Notes under the pieces: model-generated
Databases searched by the model: none
The model's input: only the letters and a program-made list of their open reading frames with translations
Told to the model about the DNA's origin: nothing
In this document: in pieces, positions 1 through 16,441 of the stretch
How the letters are laid out: each line of letters starts with the position of its first letter
How positions within the stretch are numbered: the first letter of the stretch is position 1
From: a virus
Length of the DNA stretch: 20,070 nucleotides
Virus record (IMG/VR): IMGVR_UViG_3300025655_000389
Coordinates: 1-20,070 of that record
Strand: one strand, 5' to 3'
Position numbers and translations under genes: made by a program

Positions 1-1023
1 ATTACCCAGTACCCTACCCCTTACGTATGGGACTACCTGCGTTCTCGCCTTCGTACGACCGATCAGGAGCTCATGGGTAACTTATCGATGAGATGTACGG
101 CGAACCCCGGTGGGGTAGGCGGCTGGTGGGTCAAGAAGATGTACATCGATGCGGCACCTCACAACACGACCTTTGGTGCGTCGGACATCGAAACAGGTAA
201 AACATTTGTATGGCCTCAAGGTCACCCTAAAGAGGGTCAACCTCTATTTTATCGACGGTTTATCCCCGCACGTCTGACTGACAACCCCTATCTTATGGCA
301 GACGGACAGTACGAGGCGATGCTACGCTCCCTGCCAGAGGTCGAGCGCAAGCGACTCCTCGAAGGGGACTGGGACGTTGCAGAAGGTGCAGCGTTCCCAG
401 AGTTCTCACGGGTACGGCACGTGGTAGATCCTATCGAGCTACCTACCAACTGGCCCCGCATCCGAGCAGCCGACTACGGCTACAGCTCTCCTTCGTGTGT
501 CCTTTGGGGCGCTATTGACTGGGACAACAATATCTGGGTGTACCGTGAGTTGTATGGTAAGGGAATGACAGGAGAGGAGCTTGCCCAAAAGATTATGGAG
601 GCAGAGGCAGATGATCCCGCCCCACATTACACTGTACTTGACTCTTCGTGCTGGAATAAAACGGGTCTTGGCCCCTCTATCGCGGAAACAATGATACGGT
701 GTGGCGTACGATGGACACCATCAGATCGCAATCGAGTAGCAGGCAAGATGGAGATACACCGCAGGTTGGCAGATGATCCACACTCCGGGCAGCCGCGCAT
801 GAAGATATTCAGTACCTGCCAGAACATTGTCAAACAGCTTGCAGGTATTCCGCTGTCAAAAACAAACAGCGAAGACGTAGACACCAAAGCAGAAGATCAC
901 GCATACGATGCGCTCCGCTACATGGTGATGACCCGCACATCGGGCTACGCATCAATACACAGTCAATTAAGAGGAATTAAGGACAGGGCGTATCAACCGA
1001 TGGACGCCACATTCGGATACTAG
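1..1023 (+). CDS. terL: Terminase large subunit, C-terminal part (5' end outside window)
   Basis: The reading frame is open from the first base, so the gene is truncated by the window edge; the ATG at 73 is internal. Terminase large subunit is the packaging motor, coupling ATP hydrolysis to DNA translocation through the portal and cutting the concatemer. What remains is the end of the ATPase domain (the RCTANPGG segment near 91-114, typical of the coupling motif) and the whole RNase H-like nuclease domain. Candidate metal-binding aspartates are in ADYGYSS (Asp codon 472-474), VLDSSCW (640-642) and EDHAYDALRY (907-909), the expected D...D...D order. The ATP-binding Walker motifs lie upstream of the window. 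The next gene starts 3 nt after the stop. Identity is strong from motif order; the exact packaging type cannot be read from this fragment. Confidence 0.93.
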   Translation: MTQYPTPYVWDYLRSRLRTTDQELMGNLSMRCTANPGGVGGWWVKKMYIDAAPHNTTFGASDIETGKTFVWPQGHPKEGQPLFYRRFIPARLTDNPYLMADGQYEAMLRSLPEVERKRLLEGDWDVAEGAAFPEFSRVRHVVDPIELPTNWPRIRAADYGYSSPSCVLWGAIDWDNNIWVYRELYGKGMTGEELAQKIMEAEADDPAPHYTVLDSSCWNKTGLGPSIAETMIRCGVRWTPSDRNRVAGKMEIHRRLADDPHSGQPRMKIFSTCQNIVKQLAGIPLSKTNSEDVDTKAEDHAYDALRYMVMTRTSGYASIHSQLRGIKDRAYQPMDATFGY

Positions 1024-1026
1024 GGC

Positions 1027-2760
1027 ATGGCAGAATTAGCAGACAAACTACGCGACAAGACGCTTACGGTAGGAGAGGCACTAGACCTCGCCACCAAAGA
1101 TGCTCCCCAATCGCGTATCAATAATATCAAATCTTTTGGCAATAAGCTAAAAAGGCTTGGTATCGAGTACTCTGCTCCGTTCTCATCTATCGGTGAAGCA
1201 GCCAACTTGGAGCTTTTAGCTCAAGAAAGAGGTGAACCGTTCAAGGCACTGACAACTGTACAAAACGCGGTTAACAAAGCTGCTGCTGCTCAGGATATCG
1301 AAAATCCGTTCCCCGACTATTCTGCGAAGGCACAATCTGCAGGATTGGTTGAGGGCAAACAAAAAAGAGGATCATTAGCATTTAAGGGTGTTCCTGAATC
1401 AAAGTTCAGTATGCCAACCATTATGAATGCAATCAAAAATATTGAGGACCCGGACACTCGCGCTGCAGTTGCTTTTAATGCCCTCATACCTCTTCGCGTA
1501 GGAGGAGAAAACGGCCTTACCTCATTAACATTTGATGATATTGACCTTGATAACGGAGTCATTCGTGCAGCAGGTTCAGGTAAAAAATACAGACCTGAAC
1601 TTGTTTTGCCTCCCGTTGCTCGTGCCATCCTTGAAGATCAGGCTAAACAGGCTAAAGAGCAGGGACGCTCCCGTATATTCAATACGACGCGAGAGAGAAT
1701 GACGCAAGCCGTAAACGCCCCCGGAGGTATGAAGGATGCGTTTTCTGAATTTGAACGTCGCATGGGTAGAAAACTTACTGGTATCAAAGACCTCCGTAAG
1801 ATTATCCCATCAATTCTCGCGTATGAACTAGGGTACAAAGACCTAGTAAGTAAAATTCTAGGTCATGAAAGCCCATCTGCCATTATGGGTGAAATGGCAA
1901 AGATGACATCCGATTATTACACCTCTCCCGTTTTTAAGATTGACGAGGTTGAACCAGAAACACGTGCTCTACGTGCTGTTGAAAATATTTTTGCTGACAC
2001 AGCTAATATGCAGGACTTGCGAGAGCTTCCCTTAGAGATGAATGTCTCTGCAACTAGAGTAACTGAAAGCAATCAAAGATTTCCTGTCGTACCACGAGGG
2101 CAAGATTTACTAGAAGGCTCTACACCGATTGCCTCAACCCCTGAAGATGAAGAGATTCTTCAGGCTAGGCGAGAAAAACAGAAAACAGAAATAGCGGCAC
2201 AAACAGCAGAAGCAGAACTTCGTACAGAGCAGGCCGCTACCGAAAAAGCTCGTACGATTGTAGAACGAAAAGGGCTAACCGAAGAGGCTGCTCGTATTAA
2301 AGCCGAAGAGCAAGAACTTCTTCGTAAAACTAAACAGGATTTAAGGGCCGAAAAACTTGCTGCAGAAGGTAAAGGCCCTCCCACGTCGTCTATGGTTGGC
2401 GACATGTTTTCTAAAATTGTGGATGTTTATAAAAACCTTCCGGGTCCTGTTAAAAAGATAGTACCTATCGCTGGTACCACTGCTTCACTTTATGCTGCTG
2501 GGCAAAAAGGCGCAGAAGCTATAGAACACTATGAACGCGGGGAGTACGGCATGGCTGCGGTGCGGGGAGCGCAGGCAGTTGAAGAGGTTGTTAGTCCTTT
2601 TCCAGTTACAACGAGCGATATTGAGGAGGCAGAACCTCTACCTGAAGATTTACGCAGCGGACCTTTAGGCGTTACAGCCCAACAGATAACACAACAAATT
2701 AACGCATTACCAAGACGTGCCTCGACTGAGGACCAAATGAATCAGTTATTGAACAAATAA
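1027..2760 (+). CDS. Tyrosine recombinase-like protein with long coiled-coil C-terminal extension
   Basis: The 577-residue protein has a tyrosine-recombinase catalytic domain at about residues 125-300. The first arginine box is PLRVGGENGLTSLTFDDIDL (Arg157), the beta-hairpin lysine is in GSGKK (Lys186/187), the second arginine box is KDLRK (Arg257), the LGH box gives His280, and DYY gives Tyr297 or Tyr298 as nucleophile. The usual His of the HxxR box is Lys254, and the gap from LGH to the tyrosine is longer than usual. Residues 1-125 may be a divergent arm/core-binding region. After the catalytic domain come about 275 more residues: an acidic linker, a charged Ala/Glu/Lys/Arg coiled coil (about 375-447), a short hydrophobic or amphipathic stretch (470-492) and a Gln-rich end. 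Such a tail is not part of ordinary integrases. It sits 3 nt after terminase in the late operon, with no visible attP. Whether it is active, integrative or a virion component is unknown. Confidence 0.75.
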   Translation: MAELADKLRDKTLTVGEALDLATKDAPQSRINNIKSFGNKLKRLGIEYSAPFSSIGEAANLELLAQERGEPFKALTTVQNAVNKAAAAQDIENPFPDYSAKAQSAGLVEGKQKRGSLAFKGVPESKFSMPTIMNAIKNIEDPDTRAAVAFNALIPLRVGGENGLTSLTFDDIDLDNGVIRAAGSGKKYRPELVLPPVARAILEDQAKQAKEQGRSRIFNTTRERMTQAVNAPGGMKDAFSEFERRMGRKLTGIKDLRKIIPSILAYELGYKDLVSKILGHESPSAIMGEMAKMTSDYYTSPVFKIDEVEPETRALRAVENIFADTANMQDLRELPLEMNVSATRVTESNQRFPVVPRGQDLLEGSTPIASTPEDEEILQARREKQKTEIAAQTAEAELRTEQAATEKARTIVERKGLTEEAARIKAEEQELLRKTKQDLRAEKLAAEGKGPPTSSMVGDMFSKIVDVYKNLPGPVKKIVPIAGTTASLYAAGQKGAEAIEHYERGEYGMAAVRGAQAVEEVVSPFPVTTSDIEEAEPLPEDLRSGPLGVTAQQITQQINALPRRASTEDQMNQLLNK

Positions 2761-2784: not shown

Positions 2785-2813
2785 TAGACAAAATGCCAAT
2801 GAATAACTATAAT
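2785..2813 (+). promoter_or_regulatory. Candidate sigma70-type promoter overlapping a small gene start
   Basis: TAGACA (2785-2790) is followed after 17 bases by TATAAT (2808-2813), one mismatch from the full consensus. It overlaps the ribosome binding site and first codons of the 77-residue gene, so a transcript from here (start near 2820) would miss that start codon and first serve the portal gene at 3052. The region is A/T-rich and the match may be chance. Confidence 0.35.
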
Positions 2814-3026
2814 TATGGTGCAGGCTATATTATGGGCCAAGACAAACAATCAGTTGACGCCAAAACAGGCGAAAATCAACTGTACCGTCAAGGTCTCGAG
2901 TTCGATACTCGCGCCAAAACGGGCGTACTTACCGAAGACATGCCTAAAAAACAAAGCAAGCCTACCGATACTGGCATGCTCAAAATGGCTGATGATTACA
3001 GCCTGTACAATACGAGCGGCAAGTAA
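2793..3026 (+). CDS. Small hypothetical protein between recombinase-like gene and portal
   Basis: This encodes 77 residues starting MPMNNYNYGAG. The start is supported by AAGGAG about 7 nt upstream, in the 32-nt gap after the preceding gene. The protein is hydrophilic, with a Tyr/Asn/Gly-rich start and a Lys/Asp/Thr-rich remainder; it shows no signal peptide, membrane segment or motif I recognise. The position immediately before the portal gene, 25 nt from it, suggests co-expression with head genes. An overlapping frame starting at 2815 lacks its own ribosome binding site and is Ser/Lys-rich in the way of a shadow frame. Function unknown; a minor virion component is one possibility, which is inference from position only. 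Confidence 0.7.
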   Translation: MPMNNYNYGAGYIMGQDKQSVDAKTGENQLYRQGLEFDTRAKTGVLTEDMPKKQSKPTDTGMLKMADDYSLYNTSGK

Positions 3027-3051: not shown

Positions 3052-5187
3052 ATGGCATCTGATGGAATGTACAGCTCGGCTGATGATGATCAGCCCAGCG
3101 AGATCAAAAACGTCGAAGAAAAAGCCCCCGGACTTGCTGGATTGATTCAAGAACGGTTCCGTGCTGCGGAAACTGGTCGTTACAATCATGAACAGCGTTG
3201 GCTACAAGCCTATAAAAACTTCCGGGGTAACTTCAACGACGGCAGTACCCAGTACCGCGATTCTGAGCGGTCAAAGGTCTTTCTTAAGATCACTAAGACG
3301 AAAGTCTTGGCGGCGTACGGTCAGATCGTGGACATTCTGTTTGCCAATAAACGGTTCCCTCTGTCGGTTGAATCTACCCCAGTGCCCGAAGGCATTGCGG
3401 AGTTTGCTCATCTTAAGACACCACTAGACGACGCCCTGACCCTCACAGACCCTTTCGGGTACGAAGGCGACGGTCGAGAGCTTCCCCCCGGAGCTACACG
3501 TGCCGTAGAACAAGAGAAAGACTTCTTGGGCGGCTTAAAAGGCGAGTACGGGCAGCTACCCCTTGCAGAGGGGCGTTCTCGTATTGGAGAGCCACAAATC
3601 TCTCCTGCAGCCGAAGCAGCCCGTCGTATGGAAAAGATGATCCACGACCAGCTACTCGACACCAACGCAGTCAACGTACTTCGTTCTGCCGTGTTCGAGT
3701 CGGCCCTATTTGGTACGGGTATCGTCAAAGGTCCGATGAACTTCTCCAAGACCATCAGCAAGTGGGGTCGTGATGAAGAAGGCAACCGTGAGTACCAGCC
3801 GTATGAGAAGATGGTGCCACGTATCGAAGCAGTATCCGTGTGGGACTTCCACCCTGATCCTTCTGCTTTGAGCCTTGATGACGCAGAGTACGTGATTCAA
3901 CGTCACCGTATGAACCGTCAGCAGCTACGTTCGCTACAGACTCGTCCGTATTTCGATAAAGAGATAATCGCAGACGTTATTGCTAGTGGACCAAACTACA
4001 TCGACAAGTACTACGAAGACACCGTACGTAATGACGAGAACGATCCTGCGTATCAAGACAACCGCTTTGAGGTTCTTGAATATTGGGGCATTCTCGATGG
4101 GTACTTCGCCAAACAGATCGGGATGGATCTCCCTGCAGGGATGGATGACCTCGATCAGGTACAGATTAACGCATGGGTATGCGGACCTCGCGTATTGCGT
4201 TGTGTGCTCAATCCGTTTACTCCGGCACGTATTCCGTACCATGCCGTACCGTTTGAGTTGAACCCGTACAACATTTTTGGTGTAGGCGTAGCCGAGAACA
4301 TGGAAGACGCACAGATGCTCATGAATGGGCACATGCGTATGGCTATCGACAACTTGGCACTTGCAGGTAACTTGGTGTTTGATGTTGATGAGGCCGCTTT
4401 GGTTCCCGGACAAAACTTCGATATCTACCCCGGAAAGATCTTCCGTCGTCAGTCAGGCGTCACAGGTACCGCAATCAATGGTTTAAAGTTCCCGAATACA
4501 GCGGGTGAAAACATTCAGATGTACCAGATTGCGCGTCAGCTTGCAGACGAAGAAACGGGTATCCCGTCAATTATGCACGGTCAGACAGGTGTAACAGGCA
4601 CGGGGCGTACAGCTTCGGGTCTGTCTATGCTGCTCGGTTCTGCCAGCTTGTCGATGAAGACGGTTATCAAGAATATCGACGACTTTATGCTTAAGCCGCT
4701 GGGTGAGGCGTACTTCCAGTGGAACATGCAATTCAATGAGGAATCGCCTGACATCGAGGGAGACTTAGAGATTAAACCTCGTGGTGCTTCGGCTGTCATG
4801 CAAAAGGAGGTACGTACGCAGCGTCTTACGGCTCTGCTACAAACGGTAGTCAACCCAATGTTGGCACCCTTTATCAAGATACCTAACCTTATGCGTGAGC
4901 TGGCTATCTCTCAAGACATCGATCCTGATAGTCTTGTCAACAATATGGACGAAGCCGCTCTGTACGCAGAGATGCTGAAAGGACTACAGAATGTACAACA
5001 AGGAGCAGGCCCGCAAGGTGGCCCCGCTGGTCAACAACCCGCAGGTATGGGACCCGATGCAGGAGTACCTCAAGGATCTCCAGAGCTTGACGCTTCGGGG
5101 GTTGGTGATGGCACAATCGGAACAGGAAATGTTCCGTCTGCAGGGGAAAGCGGCTTTACTGGAAATGCTTCTCAGTTTGAAGAATAA
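3052..5187 (+). CDS. Portal (head-tail connector) protein
   Basis: The 711-residue protein is close in length to podovirus portals of the P22 type. It would form the dodecameric ring at one capsid vertex through which terminase packages DNA and to which the tail adaptor binds. Supporting features are the position after terminase, the N-terminal helical segment with RYNHEQRWLQAYKNFRG, the Asp/Pro-rich central part with VSVWDFHPDP and YVIQRHRMNR, and the TASGLSMLLGSA segment, which resembles portal stem or core sequences. The start has GGGGA 6 nt upstream. The last 60 or so residues are a Gly/Pro/Gln-rich low-complexity tail, and exactly that part is overlapped by another gene in a different frame. 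Family assignment rests on recognition of sequence style and gene order, without an alignment. Confidence 0.88.
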   Translation: MASDGMYSSADDDQPSEIKNVEEKAPGLAGLIQERFRAAETGRYNHEQRWLQAYKNFRGNFNDGSTQYRDSERSKVFLKITKTKVLAAYGQIVDILFANKRFPLSVESTPVPEGIAEFAHLKTPLDDALTLTDPFGYEGDGRELPPGATRAVEQEKDFLGGLKGEYGQLPLAEGRSRIGEPQISPAAEAARRMEKMIHDQLLDTNAVNVLRSAVFESALFGTGIVKGPMNFSKTISKWGRDEEGNREYQPYEKMVPRIEAVSVWDFHPDPSALSLDDAEYVIQRHRMNRQQLRSLQTRPYFDKEIIADVIASGPNYIDKYYEDTVRNDENDPAYQDNRFEVLEYWGILDGYFAKQIGMDLPAGMDDLDQVQINAWVCGPRVLRCVLNPFTPARIPYHAVPFELNPYNIFGVGVAENMEDAQMLMNGHMRMAIDNLALAGNLVFDVDEAALVPGQNFDIYPGKIFRRQSGVTGTAINGLKFPNTAGENIQMYQIARQLADEETGIPSIMHGQTGVTGTGRTASGLSMLLGSASLSMKTVIKNIDDFMLKPLGEAYFQWNMQFNEESPDIEGDLEIKPRGASAVMQKEVRTQRLTALLQTVVNPMLAPFIKIPNLMRELAISQDIDPDSLVNNMDEAALYAEMLKGLQNVQQGAGPQGGPAGQQPAGMGPDAGVPQGSPELDASGVGDGTIGTGNVPSAGESGFTGNASQFEE

Positions 5188-6810: not shown

Positions 6811-7512
6811 ATGCAATTATTTCTTAAACCAGAAGCAGAAACAGATTTTAGCCGTTCAGAGGTTTCTGTACAATACGATGCAGATGAGGGCGTATTCAAG
6901 GCGGGCTCTGCATCTGTTATTGGGGCAGAAGAAAACGCAAACTTTGCTCAGATACACGCAGAACAAGCTGCTAGTACTTTGAATTCATTAATCACGGAGT
7001 ACGGATTTAAACCTCACCCACAAGCGCTTAGTGTGATCTTAAGGGATAGCGGCACCATTACCAATAATCCCAACTATTTTAGTAACAATAAAAAAGGATC
7101 GTTAACTGCTCAACAGCTCATGTACACTATTATTAAGCAGGGCGGGCTACAAGTATCAGAAGAAACACGGGACGATATAACGGCTAATCAAGACGCCTTC
7201 GCTGAATTTATTATAAATACAGCAAATAAAATGCAAGATGACATTGCTCGTAAATCCTACTCTATGCCCACAATGATTCATGATCAGACATTCTACGGCA
7301 TAGATAGTGTTCGGGGGAACAACAACAACTACACCCCCTTTGCATACAGGCAAGCAGCACAAGAATTTGCACGTAATGCTTTTAAAATTAAAGAAGAGAC
7401 CGTAAACGGCAAACAAATTATGGTTGAAACAGGTTTTGAGGTTATGGGTGATAACACCCTAAGATACTACGAGCAACCTTTGGGTGAGAAACGTAATGAA
7501 TCAGTTCAATAA
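6811..7512 (+). CDS. Hypothetical protein sharing a domain with the preceding gene
   Basis: The product is 233 residues, start MQLFLKPEAETDF. A GTG at 6784 in the same frame would overlap the upstream gene; the ATG at 6811, preceded by AGGAAA at 6802-6807 just after the upstream stop, is preferred, though its spacing is short. Residues 22-140 resemble the C-terminal domain of the previous protein: a strand ending in G-x-FK, a helix with A-x-x-LN-x-L-x-x-x-YGFK, a strand with S-x-x-x-R, then IK-x-G and a later acidic-to-AN segment. The remainder contains an Asn run (GNNNNYTPF) and a basic stretch. There is no signal peptide, membrane segment or known motif. The pair probably arose by duplication and may act in one complex. 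Function unknown. Confidence 0.82.
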   Translation: MQLFLKPEAETDFSRSEVSVQYDADEGVFKAGSASVIGAEENANFAQIHAEQAASTLNSLITEYGFKPHPQALSVILRDSGTITNNPNYFSNNKKGSLTAQQLMYTIIKQGGLQVSEETRDDITANQDAFAEFIINTANKMQDDIARKSYSMPTMIHDQTFYGIDSVRGNNNNYTPFAYRQAAQEFARNAFKIKEETVNGKQIMVETGFEVMGDNTLRYYEQPLGEKRNESVQ

Positions 7513-9025
7513 AATCCATCTTGATACAGAAGCTCTCAGCCCTGATTTACTGCAGGCCCTTACTCTTTCTGTGTATGGTCTCAACCATATTTCTTCAGCA
7601 CCTCCAGAAGAAGAACAACTACGTATGATGATGGCTACGGGGGGCGTAACAGAAGTACAGAAAACTGTTCCTGATCAGCCTAGCCCTGCTGGACCCCCCA
7701 GCGGCGTAATCGGTGCTGCCGAAGCAACTCCACAAGAAAGCATTGCAGACGATGTACCTATGGAGGTGCCGGAGGGTGCCTTCATTATCAATGCCGCAGC
7801 CGCAGAAGTAGCAGGCTACGGTGACATTAAGAAGATGATCATGAGTGCTATCGGCGTAGCAAAGCGTCTAGGTATTGAGATTGCTACGGGAGATTCTGAA
7901 GCAAGTGAAGAAGAAGCCGTAGACCTACTGGTGTCTAAAGGCGAAGTGTACATCGAGCCTACACTTGCTAAGATCATCGGGTACGACGTACTTGAGAAGA
8001 TCAACAATCGCGGCAAGAAAGAGGTAGCTCGCCGTCAACAAGAGGCCGCAGCCGCTGAGGAACAGCAGGCAGCGCCCGCGCCACAAGCACCTCAAGCGCC
8101 GATGCAGCGAGGCGGATTCGTAAAAAAAAAGTTTGCTGAAGGTGGAGATGTAAACTCTGAAGAGGGTTTGGTAGAACGTATAGCTGATTTTTTAATCACA
8201 CCACTCAATGAAGGCGAAGAAGAGCAGTTAGCCCAGATAAAATCTGAAGCTGAAGCGCGTAAACAAGGTGAGTCCTTTGGGGATGTAGAAGCTGGGTTTG
8301 ATATCCTAAATAGATACAAAACAAACCGTGCGAATCTCTATATACCTGAAGGTTCTGATGCCGTTGAGGAGGGATACAATAGTACGTGGGATCCTGTTCT
8401 TCAACTTGCACTATCTGATCCAAGAGGTCTTTCGGGCTTTGTTTCAGAAAAACCTATGGGCGAAAATGTTTATGGTGCATATGAACCTAAGTCAAATGAT
8501 ATCCGAATGAGCTCGCAAGAGTACGGCACTGATAAAAAGATGTCATATGTTGATACTTTGACGCATGAGTTAATGCACAAAGGCCAATACGAAAGCGGTT
8601 CAGCTCCGGTTGATTTTGACAATTTCGGAGATATGATTGAGAGGAATAGGTATTTACACGCTGTAATAAGCAAAAAATTGATGCTAGACAGTTTATACAA
8701 GATGCAAAGTGCTAAAACAGAAAAAGAAAAATCGCTGTATAAGAAGTCTTTTGAGCACAACATTGATATGCTAACAGGCGTTTACATGCCAGCTATACCA
8801 GAGTTTAAAGAAAAAATAAAAGATAAGAGCATACTTGCGGACATGTACACAGGCGACATCACACCCGCAGAAGCTGCTACAGAAGTTTATAACTTGTTTG
8901 AAAGCAGCCCTACCGCTACAGCTATAGAACGAGACGCAGAGGCTAGGGCTATGTACCGCCTCTCTACAAACAGAAAGCAAGCAGCAGCTCAAAAGAATTC
9001 TTCCGGATTTATTCCGAAGAACTAA
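7496..9025 (+). CDS. Two-part virion-associated protein with C-terminal HExxH metallopeptidase domain
   Basis: The chosen start is ATG 7496 (GGTGAG at 7483-7488); a GTG at 7484 is less likely. The product is 509 residues. The N-terminal part contains two similar segments, VPEGAFIINAAAAEVAGYGD (91-110) and VSKGEVYIEPTLAKIIGYDV (146-165), a motif I associate with marine phage proteins. It then has an Ala/Gln/Pro linker (180-203) and GGFVKKKFAEGGDV. The C-terminal half holds TLTHELMHKGQ, a zincin HExxH motif (His357, Glu358, His361). A third metal ligand could be Glu478 or Glu482 in IERDAEARAMY. Base composition becomes A/T-richer at the linker, suggesting a fusion. The gene overlaps the previous one by 17 nt and precedes scaffold and coat, the usual place for a head-maturation protease; that role, or a host-directed virion peptidase, is inference. 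Confidence 0.82.
   Translation: MNQFNKIHLDTEALSPDLLQALTLSVYGLNHISSAPPEEEQLRMMMATGGVTEVQKTVPDQPSPAGPPSGVIGAAEATPQESIADDVPMEVPEGAFIINAAAAEVAGYGDIKKMIMSAIGVAKRLGIEIATGDSEASEEEAVDLLVSKGEVYIEPTLAKIIGYDVLEKINNRGKKEVARRQQEAAAAEEQQAAPAPQAPQAPMQRGGFVKKKFAEGGDVNSEEGLVERIADFLITPLNEGEEEQLAQIKSEAEARKQGESFGDVEAGFDILNRYKTNRANLYIPEGSDAVEEGYNSTWDPVLQLALSDPRGLSGFVSEKPMGENVYGAYEPKSNDIRMSSQEYGTDKKMSYVDTLTHELMHKGQYESGSAPVDFDNFGDMIERNRYLHAVISKKLMLDSLYKMQSAKTEKEKSLYKKSFEHNIDMLTGVYMPAIPEFKEKIKDKSILADMYTGDITPAEAATEVYNLFESSPTATAIERDAEARAMYRLSTNRKQAAAQKNSSGFIPKN
8122..8139 (+). other. Candidate -1 ribosomal frameshift (slippery) site
   Basis: Nine A residues (8122-8130) precede G8131. In the zero frame they contain the heptamer A-AAA-AAG at 8125-8131, the same as the dnaX slippery site. 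A GAGG lies at 8109-8112, about 12 nt upstream, a position where a Shine-Dalgarno-like stimulator can act. A -1 shift adds Val-Cys and stops at TGA 8137-8139, giving a 214-residue product without the metallopeptidase; a +1 shift stops at TAA 8151-8153. No strong downstream stem-loop is visible, so function is uncertain. Confidence 0.4.
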
Positions 9026-15670: not shown

Positions 15671-16441
15671 ATGGCTGTTACCGTAAATGCTGCTGTTTAC
15701 GGAGTAGGTGTCTACGGAACAGCTAGGTATGGCAAGGTTATTGTAAGCAACCTTGACCAAGCCACCGCCACAGCTTCTGCTGGAACCGTTCAGGTAAACG
15801 TAACAGAAATCCTGAACAGTGTGACCGCAACAGGCGCAATTGCTCCCGTAGTTGCTGGTGGGTTTGAGATTGACATTAGCGAAGTTATTTCGGCTGGTGT
15901 CGGTGCTACAGGTGCAGTCAATACTGTACAGGTAAACGTTGTAGAAATTCTAGGCAGTGTTAGCGCAACAGGTTCTGCAAACGACATTATCCCCCATGCA
16001 AATTCTTTAATTGTTGTTGATGGGGTTCAAGGCACAGGCGCAGTCAATACTCTCGAAGAAAAGCCAACAGAGGCTCTGGGCAGTGTAAGTGCTACAGGCT
16101 CTGTAAACACTGTTCAAGTTAACATCACCGAAATACTTGGCAGTGTAAGTGCAACAGGTTCGATAGGAACACTAGAGCACAGCAACACAGTAACGCTAAC
16201 GGGCGTACAAGCCACAGGTACTGTTAATGCACTCGAAGAAAAACCCACAGAGGTTCTTGGTAGCGTAAGTGCTATAGGTGCAGTTGGCAGTCCCGCGGTA
16301 AACATTCTCGAAGCATTGAGTAGTGTTACATCCACCGGAACAATCGGAACTCTAACGACCACCGCCGTCGTTTTCGATTTCTACGCAGTTCGCGAACAGT
16401 ATAGCCCCCGCCGAACCATCCTCATACCTCGAGCAGCCTAA
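15671..16441 (+). CDS. Repeat-rich putative virion surface protein
   Basis: The 256-residue product has a YG motif start (AAVYGVGVYGTARYGKV, residues 7-23), a long degenerate repeat array (about 28-230) and a distinct end FDFYAVREQYSPRRTILIPRAA. The repeat unit is about 20 residues, built around L-G-S-V-S-A-T-G followed by a valine-rich strand (TVQVNVxEI) or a LEEKPTE strand. Ten units can be counted. The ends are of different character and probably attach the array. A repeating Ser-Thr-Gly turn with alternating Val strands suggests a beta-solenoid or fibrous stalk. AGGAAA overlaps the upstream stop as ribosome binding site. The role, probably a surface spike or fibre, is inferred. Confidence 0.8.
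   Translation: MAVTVNAAVYGVGVYGTARYGKVIVSNLDQATATASAGTVQVNVTEILNSVTATGAIAPVVAGGFEIDISEVISAGVGATGAVNTVQVNVVEILGSVSATGSANDIIPHANSLIVVDGVQGTGAVNTLEEKPTEALGSVSATGSVNTVQVNITEILGSVSATGSIGTLEHSNTVTLTGVQATGTVNALEEKPTEVLGSVSAIGAVGSPAVNILEALSSVTSTGTIGTLTTTAVVFDFYAVREQYSPRRTILIPRAA
15752..16360 (+). repeat. Degenerate ~60-bp coding repeats, with a ~180-bp higher-order duplication
   Basis: The coding repeat LGSVSATG occurs at residues 94, 136 and 156 and as a variant (LGSVSAIG) at 196, with more diverged copies elsewhere. A longer block, GVQ-x-TG-x-VN-x-LEEKPTE followed by LGSVSA, occurs twice with a 60-residue period (beginning about 118 and 178). Codons differ between copies, so the array is not recent. 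Confidence 0.8.

Follow-up and report, generated by a model that had tools for sequence, protein, structure and literature searches.

A hypervariable tyrosine recombinase cassette between the terminase and portal genes of a marine phage clade

Sequence comparisons give good support to two properties of the slot between the terminase and portal genes in a clade of marine phages: its position in the late operon is fixed across one terminase clade, and it is occupied by a hypervariable modular cassette. The starting point was the window, i.e. the 20,070 bases of IMGVR_UViG_3300025655_000389, an apparent fragment of an uncultured marine phage genome. Its slot gene, ORF 1027-2760, encodes what alignments and structural models together strongly indicate to be a tyrosine recombinase with its catalytic residues retained. 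The cassette is the main feature of this locus across the clade and is invisible from a single sequence.

Source, lineage, and sampling

Compared with HMO-2011-type phages that infect Roseobacter, Pelagibacter, and SAR116 bacteria, the window shows about 48-56% identity in the large terminase subunit (TerL) and about 45-52% in the portal protein. These identities place the phage in an uncultured sister lineage of that group of marine podoviruses. The window TerL is truncated at its 5' end, and the full protein used for comparison was taken from the near-identical contig L002. Relatives comprised 80 IMG/VR contigs collected by terminase similarity, and in the terminase tree the slot-bearing contigs form a single branch (74 rows, SH-aLRT 98%). 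In public genomes, two pairs of phage contigs (L104/L105 and L107/L108, NHFY01 and NZIV01 contigs) are equal in length, range, and match scores and are filed in MAGs of two phyla, Flavobacteriales and Neomarinimicrobiota; the phage sequences have probably been misbinned.

The slot gene and its neighbours

The slot gene runs through 577 codons with no internal stop, starting 3 nt past the TerL stop and ending 32 nt ahead of the small gene that follows (Table 1). It lies among packaging and head genes, in agreement with the late-operon location given in the initial annotation, and this position in the operon suggests late expression. The same annotation placed the gene directly between terminase and portal; the slot is correct, but a 77-aa gene intervenes before the portal. 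The long tail noted there is also present, covering about residues 302-577, and is variable and mostly helical in a model of low confidence, with a helical stretch at 372-447, Ala/Gly-rich helices, and a C-terminal end reading ...STEDQMNQLLNK. Farther downstream, window ORF 15671-16441 consists of imperfect repeats of ~30 residues each (..EVLGSVSATGSVNTVQVN..).

Table 1. Coordinates of the slot gene, its predicted parts, and neighbouring features in the window
Feature	Position	Strand	Remarks
Terminase large subunit, 3' part	73..1023	+	Upstream border of the cassette
Slot gene, putative tyrosine recombinase head and variable C-terminal tail	1027..2760	+	577 aa, ATG start
N-terminal helical, core-binding-like domain	1027..1356	+	Residues ~1-110, pLDDT about 90, all helical
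Catalytic domain (predicted)	1357..1932	+	Residues ~111-302; R157, K187, K254, R257, H280, Y298
Variable tail	1933..2757	+	Residues ~303-577; exchanged among close relatives
Small 77-aa gene, no family match	2793..3026	+	Present beside the slot gene in most relatives
SU10-type portal protein	3052..5187	+	PF23899 1.8e-26; downstream border of the cassette
Late protein with HExxH motif	7484..9025	+	Similar to the slot C-terminal tag at its own C-terminus (SSGFIPKN) and internally (GGFVKKKFAEGG)

A survey of the terminase-portal gap in related genomes had been suggested at the outset, and it revealed a large slot gene throughout the clade: every contig of the 74-contig terminase clade that reaches the gap has one gene there, of 338-1051 aa. 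A small gene of 65-87 aa is present in most clade contigs that extend further past the slot. In more distant relatives, the gap measures 3-10 bp or holds a few tiny ORFs, and the slot gene is absent from these slotless relatives, as it is from each cultured HMO-2011-type member examined at this position. The slot recombinases fall into at least eight subfamilies, and three contigs have the tail only. The Rhizobium phages RHph_N3_19 and phiM6 also have large slot genes (protein of unknown function, SGNH hydrolase), which were considered as possible kin of the recombinases and rejected, as they show no similarity to recombinases and their C-termini lack the terminal tag described below.

Fold and active site of the slot protein

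As a single sequence, the window slot protein matches the phrog_1 integrase family (E 7.6e-6) and, under the Pfam curated cut-off, PF00589 (E=0.0034), with no match against the PDB by sequence alone or by tblastn in 50,697 phage records. An AlphaFold2 model built from a 32-sequence alignment (the window and 31 relatives) gives a head whose residues 1-280 largely reach pLDDT 80-95, and Foldseek relates this model to lambda Int (E 7e-5, probability 1.00) and to XerA, XerH, and the Tn1549 integrase (also probability 1.00), with MrpR and YopR among the matches at lower probability. The initial assignment to the tyrosine recombinases is thereby upheld by the predicted fold. Residues 286-307 around Y298 have pLDDT <50, so the model gives no direct view of the pocket geometry at the tyrosine. 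In the L053 subfamily, modelled separately, the tyrosine region reaches a pLDDT of about 90 and Foldseek leads to Xer and Cre; a profile-profile alignment (hhalign) of the window and L053 subfamilies (98.8%, E 1e-16) spans residue 11 to the third motif.

The six best-conserved of the 514 columns in the window alignment are R257, F218, R157, Y298, H280, and K187, and the five presumptive catalytic residues among these (R157, K187, R257, H280, and Y298) all fall within the nine columns that are at least 90% conserved (hypergeometric p 4e-10). Conservation among the 32 sequences thus confirms the catalytic R157, K187, R257, and H280 listed in the initial annotation and narrows its two ambiguous pairs, Lys186/187 and Tyr297/298, to K187 and Y298: L003 reads F297 and Y298 where the window has Tyr at both positions, so the nucleophile of the window protein is Y298 and not Y297. 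Missing from the earlier list was the His/Lys-II position, which is K254 in the window and K, S, T, A, or G across relatives. The A8 and A9 subfamilies have Arg instead of His at position III, and the complete R-K-H-R-H-Y set occurs in the L068, L071, L075, and L076 proteins, with the L068 and L076 types also being integrase matches at the sequence level (phrog_1 4e-33). When 64 slot proteins were scanned, 37 matched phrog_1 and 25 phrog_216 (both integrases), while PF00589 was matched by 20 (best E 2e-30).

The presence of MrpR and YopR among the structural matches and the variable His/Lys-II residue could also fit a fold that has lost catalysis and now serves as a DNA-binding regulator or survives as a relic of structure, like these proteins of SPbeta. 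However, in each of the five subfamily alignments R-K-R-(H/R)-Y ranks with the columns of highest conservation, which would not be expected had catalysis been lost, and the L068 and L076 types keep every catalytic position, making a retired fold very improbable.

Hypervariability, modularity, and selection

Head subfamilies, which were assigned by the analyst from alignments, change 36-40 times on the terminase tree, where the minimum possible is 13. Pairwise DNA comparison reveals exchanges of the head, the catalytic domain, or the tail with sharp borders. In the pair L073/L080, the flanks are mostly 85-96% identical and the slot gene about 35%, and in L033/L066 flanks of 89-99% identity enclose heads of about 37%. 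The pair L003/L021 differs in the catalytic domain (about 52%), with flanks, N-terminal part, and tail mostly >85%, and thus retains the N-terminal domain despite the exchange of the catalytic one. The window and L007 share the head (94-98%) and the downstream region (94-99%), with a tail identity of about 40%. Conversely, tails that are 73-92% identical occur on heads without detectable similarity (L041/L043, L033/L043). Assembly chimeras are an unlikely source of these swaps because clean borders recur across many independent contigs.

L068 carries a textbook integrase head; the slot genes of its near relatives L070 and L063 lack a head and keep the middle and C-terminal parts, and L059, from the same subclade, matches the middle part only. 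Together with the head and tail exchanges, these tail-only versions indicate that the recombinase is a head that can be exchanged on its carrier. Purifying selection acts on the head between diverged relatives, with dN/dS of 0.09 for window/L003 and 0.03-0.04 among L010/L019/L021 (dS near saturation); when the window is compared with its nearest kin, L005 and L007, dN/dS is about 0.9, on few changes. The R-K-R-(H/R)-Y set shows no decay despite the exchange of the slot.

Integration, attachment sites, and lysogeny

Some HMO-2011-type phages are temperate, and in subgroups I-III the integrase gene is reported to lie upstream of the replication genes (PMC9038755). The slot gene could therefore be a relocated integrase in the late operon, whose head swaps change the host attachment site and whose attP lies within the gene or elsewhere. 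This reading is in keeping with the canonical active site of the L068 and L076 types and with allele swaps driven by competition for attachment sites, in which rare alleles find empty sites. It also agrees with the lack of another integrase in the longest relatives: the PF00589 and phrog_216 profiles, run against G001, a near-complete relative of 53,956 bp that includes genes for replication, packaging, head, and lysis, and against the 25-43 kb contigs, matched the slot or nothing, although a very divergent second recombinase could escape detection, since both profiles also miss several slot heads.

Several observations count against such relocation. The known integrase of this phage group sits elsewhere in the genome, and the spacers of 3 nt upstream and 32 nt downstream leave no space for an attP next to the gene. 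In line with the initial annotation, no att site was found beside the slot gene, nor was a tRNA-type core found within it, though the gene itself could still contain an attP; no tRNAs were found in the relatives. A Pfam scan of 45 ORFs of G001 yielded no repressor family, with T7-type endonuclease I, RNR, helicase, and HNH among its matches; a PHROGs search of G001 matched 111 families (25 of the 111 listed). None of the 40 GTDB loci collected by terminase similarity is a slot-bearing prophage, and tail swaps under a constant head would be left unexplained. An ordinary integrase is also unlikely because the slot is always filled while its version is constantly swapped. Overall, we consider a relocated integrase unlikely.

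Searches for inverted repeats that might form a recombinase core site recovered weak or lineage-bound elements only. A partial palindrome of 33 bp (e.g. GTATATCCCGGCGGGTCTTAGACCCATAGTACA) is conserved among slot-bearing contigs, 200-430 nt ahead of TerS (at ~1390-1430 in L003 and ~2030-2060 in L009, upstream of the presumed late promoter), and some contigs have a TAGGGTACCCTA palindrome near it; these are possibly a packaging or regulatory site. The shared palindrome and the late-operon position adjoining the terminase would suit a late resolvase, acting in the producing cell on multimers or concatemers at a phage site to give correct packaging units. However, the 33-bp palindrome is almost identical in L037, L038, and L041 despite their three different head types, and is thus unlikely to be the recombinase site. 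Such rapid diversification would be unexpected for a housekeeping resolvase, three close relatives lack the head, and G001 already has its T7-type endonuclease I, so that a late resolvase seems distinctly improbable.

A terminal tag shared with the portal

Many relatives of the slot protein end in a C-terminal tag of the form ...[GSN]F[LIV]xx (e.g. DNFLTMQP, GDSFLNMKP, DQGFLSVN). Of 61 slot proteins, 31 have the F-[LIV] tag within their last 45 residues, against 2.0 expected from shuffles. Among portals, 29 of the 52 compared have it N-terminally (MSEDNFLQP..., MADNFLEP...), and 9 of the 28 proteins homologous to window ORF 7484-9025 have it C-terminally. These counts come from the sequences on which the motif itself was defined, and the homologous portals are not independent of one another. 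The terminase lacks the tag, and the remaining genes show it no more often than chance. Portals tend to have the tag where the slot protein has it (Fisher p 4e-4, from counts that ignore shared ancestry), and no portal of a slotless relative carries it except in the Rhizobium phages RHph_N3_19 and phiM6, whose portals start with MASFLDD and MASFMDE (FL- or FM-type). The natural reading of these sequences is that the shared tag would reflect a common docking partner in the procapsid. The window lineage has neither tag, its slot protein ending in DQMNQLLNK and its portal starting with MASDGMYSS. The packaging and ejection of the protein envisaged in the initial annotation is indirectly backed by portal-shared tags in many relatives, tail shuffling, and tail-only versions, but not by a tag in the window itself.

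Most portals of the slot clade have NFL[QE]P at the N-terminus (e.g. L023, L041; L147:4639-6756). ORF 7484-9025 and its homologues (L003, L010, L025, L037, L046, L083) combine a conserved N-terminal with a variable C-terminal part; several homologues have an HExxH peptidase-like motif, and GF-type tags lie at internal and terminal positions. This family is perhaps a second polymorphic cargo locus. Neither the L070 tail protein nor window ORF 7484 had a match in phage records.

Proposed role of the slot protein

The slot enzyme may be delivered by the virus particle. We find it nearly an even prospect that the protein is an active, late-made recombinase cargo that is loaded into the virion, ejected with the genome, and directed at allele-specific DNA targets; its enzymatic activity, virion loading, ejection, and DNA target are what we infer here. 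The slot gene would be translated together with terminase and portal, and its recombinase would be the cargo of a late phage protein, placed there as a swappable head. The variable C-terminal part would dock the protein to the procapsid or portal, and the docked protein would be loaded into the particle and enter the next cell with the genome. Delivered in this way, the recombinase would act early in the next infection on sites that differ between alleles, with Y298 cleaving DNA and strands being exchanged between DNA sites. Possible targets include the closure of the incoming genome, or host or rival-element DNA. More doubtful, though still worth considering, is the wider proposal that this marine phage clade packages a tyrosine recombinase in its virion as an interchangeable head on a portal-tagged carrier, that its alleles pass between close relatives under selection of a frequency-dependent or arms-race kind, and that recombination is delivered as a protein at infection.

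Comparison with known systems and implications

The site-specific recombinases known from phages are mostly integrases, invertases, or resolvases that the cell produces, and in MrpR/YopR-type regulators the catalytic residues are lost. The slot protein is a tyrosine recombinase by family, in a new setting. It resembles the phage tyrosine integrases (PF00589; phrog_1, phrog_216; lambda Int) in fold and in Arg-I, Lys-beta, Arg-II, His-III, and Tyr. Unlike these, its gene lies between terminase and portal, encodes a long exchangeable tail, and has no att site or lysogeny genes that we could find, and its family varies at His/Lys-II and has Arg at III in two subfamilies. The HMO-2011-type integrase (e.g. 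of CRP-3; PMC9038755) is likewise a tyrosine recombinase from the same phage group, whereas the slot gene belongs to the packaging and head module and is missing in the cultured members examined. With the MrpR/YopR-type proteins, the slot protein shares a phage recombinase fold as a remote structural match, but those are described as regulators, whereas it retains catalytic residues.

The best behavioural analogues of this putative cargo are the injected polyvalent proteins and other ejected virion proteins (T4 Alt, P1 DdrB, N4 vRNAP; PMC5512222), which the slot gene resembles in its late or virion context, modular enzymatic head, variable carrier, and conflict-like diversification. In the main text of the polyvalent-protein survey, the words "recombinase" and "integrase" are both absent (PMC5512222), and our literature search for packaged integrases returned only retroviruses and virophages, plus an unrelated paper.

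Here a recombinase is fixed in a head-gene slot with its catalytic residues kept, and swaps are far more frequent in it than in the adjacent genes. If it is delivered by the particle, recombination would join the list of activities that phages inject, which would explain why the enzyme is retained in a clade without recognisable integrase or repressor and would make the slot a source of many natural recombinases whose specificities may differ. The terminal tag shared with the portal, if confirmed, could be used to predict virion cargo in uncultured phages.
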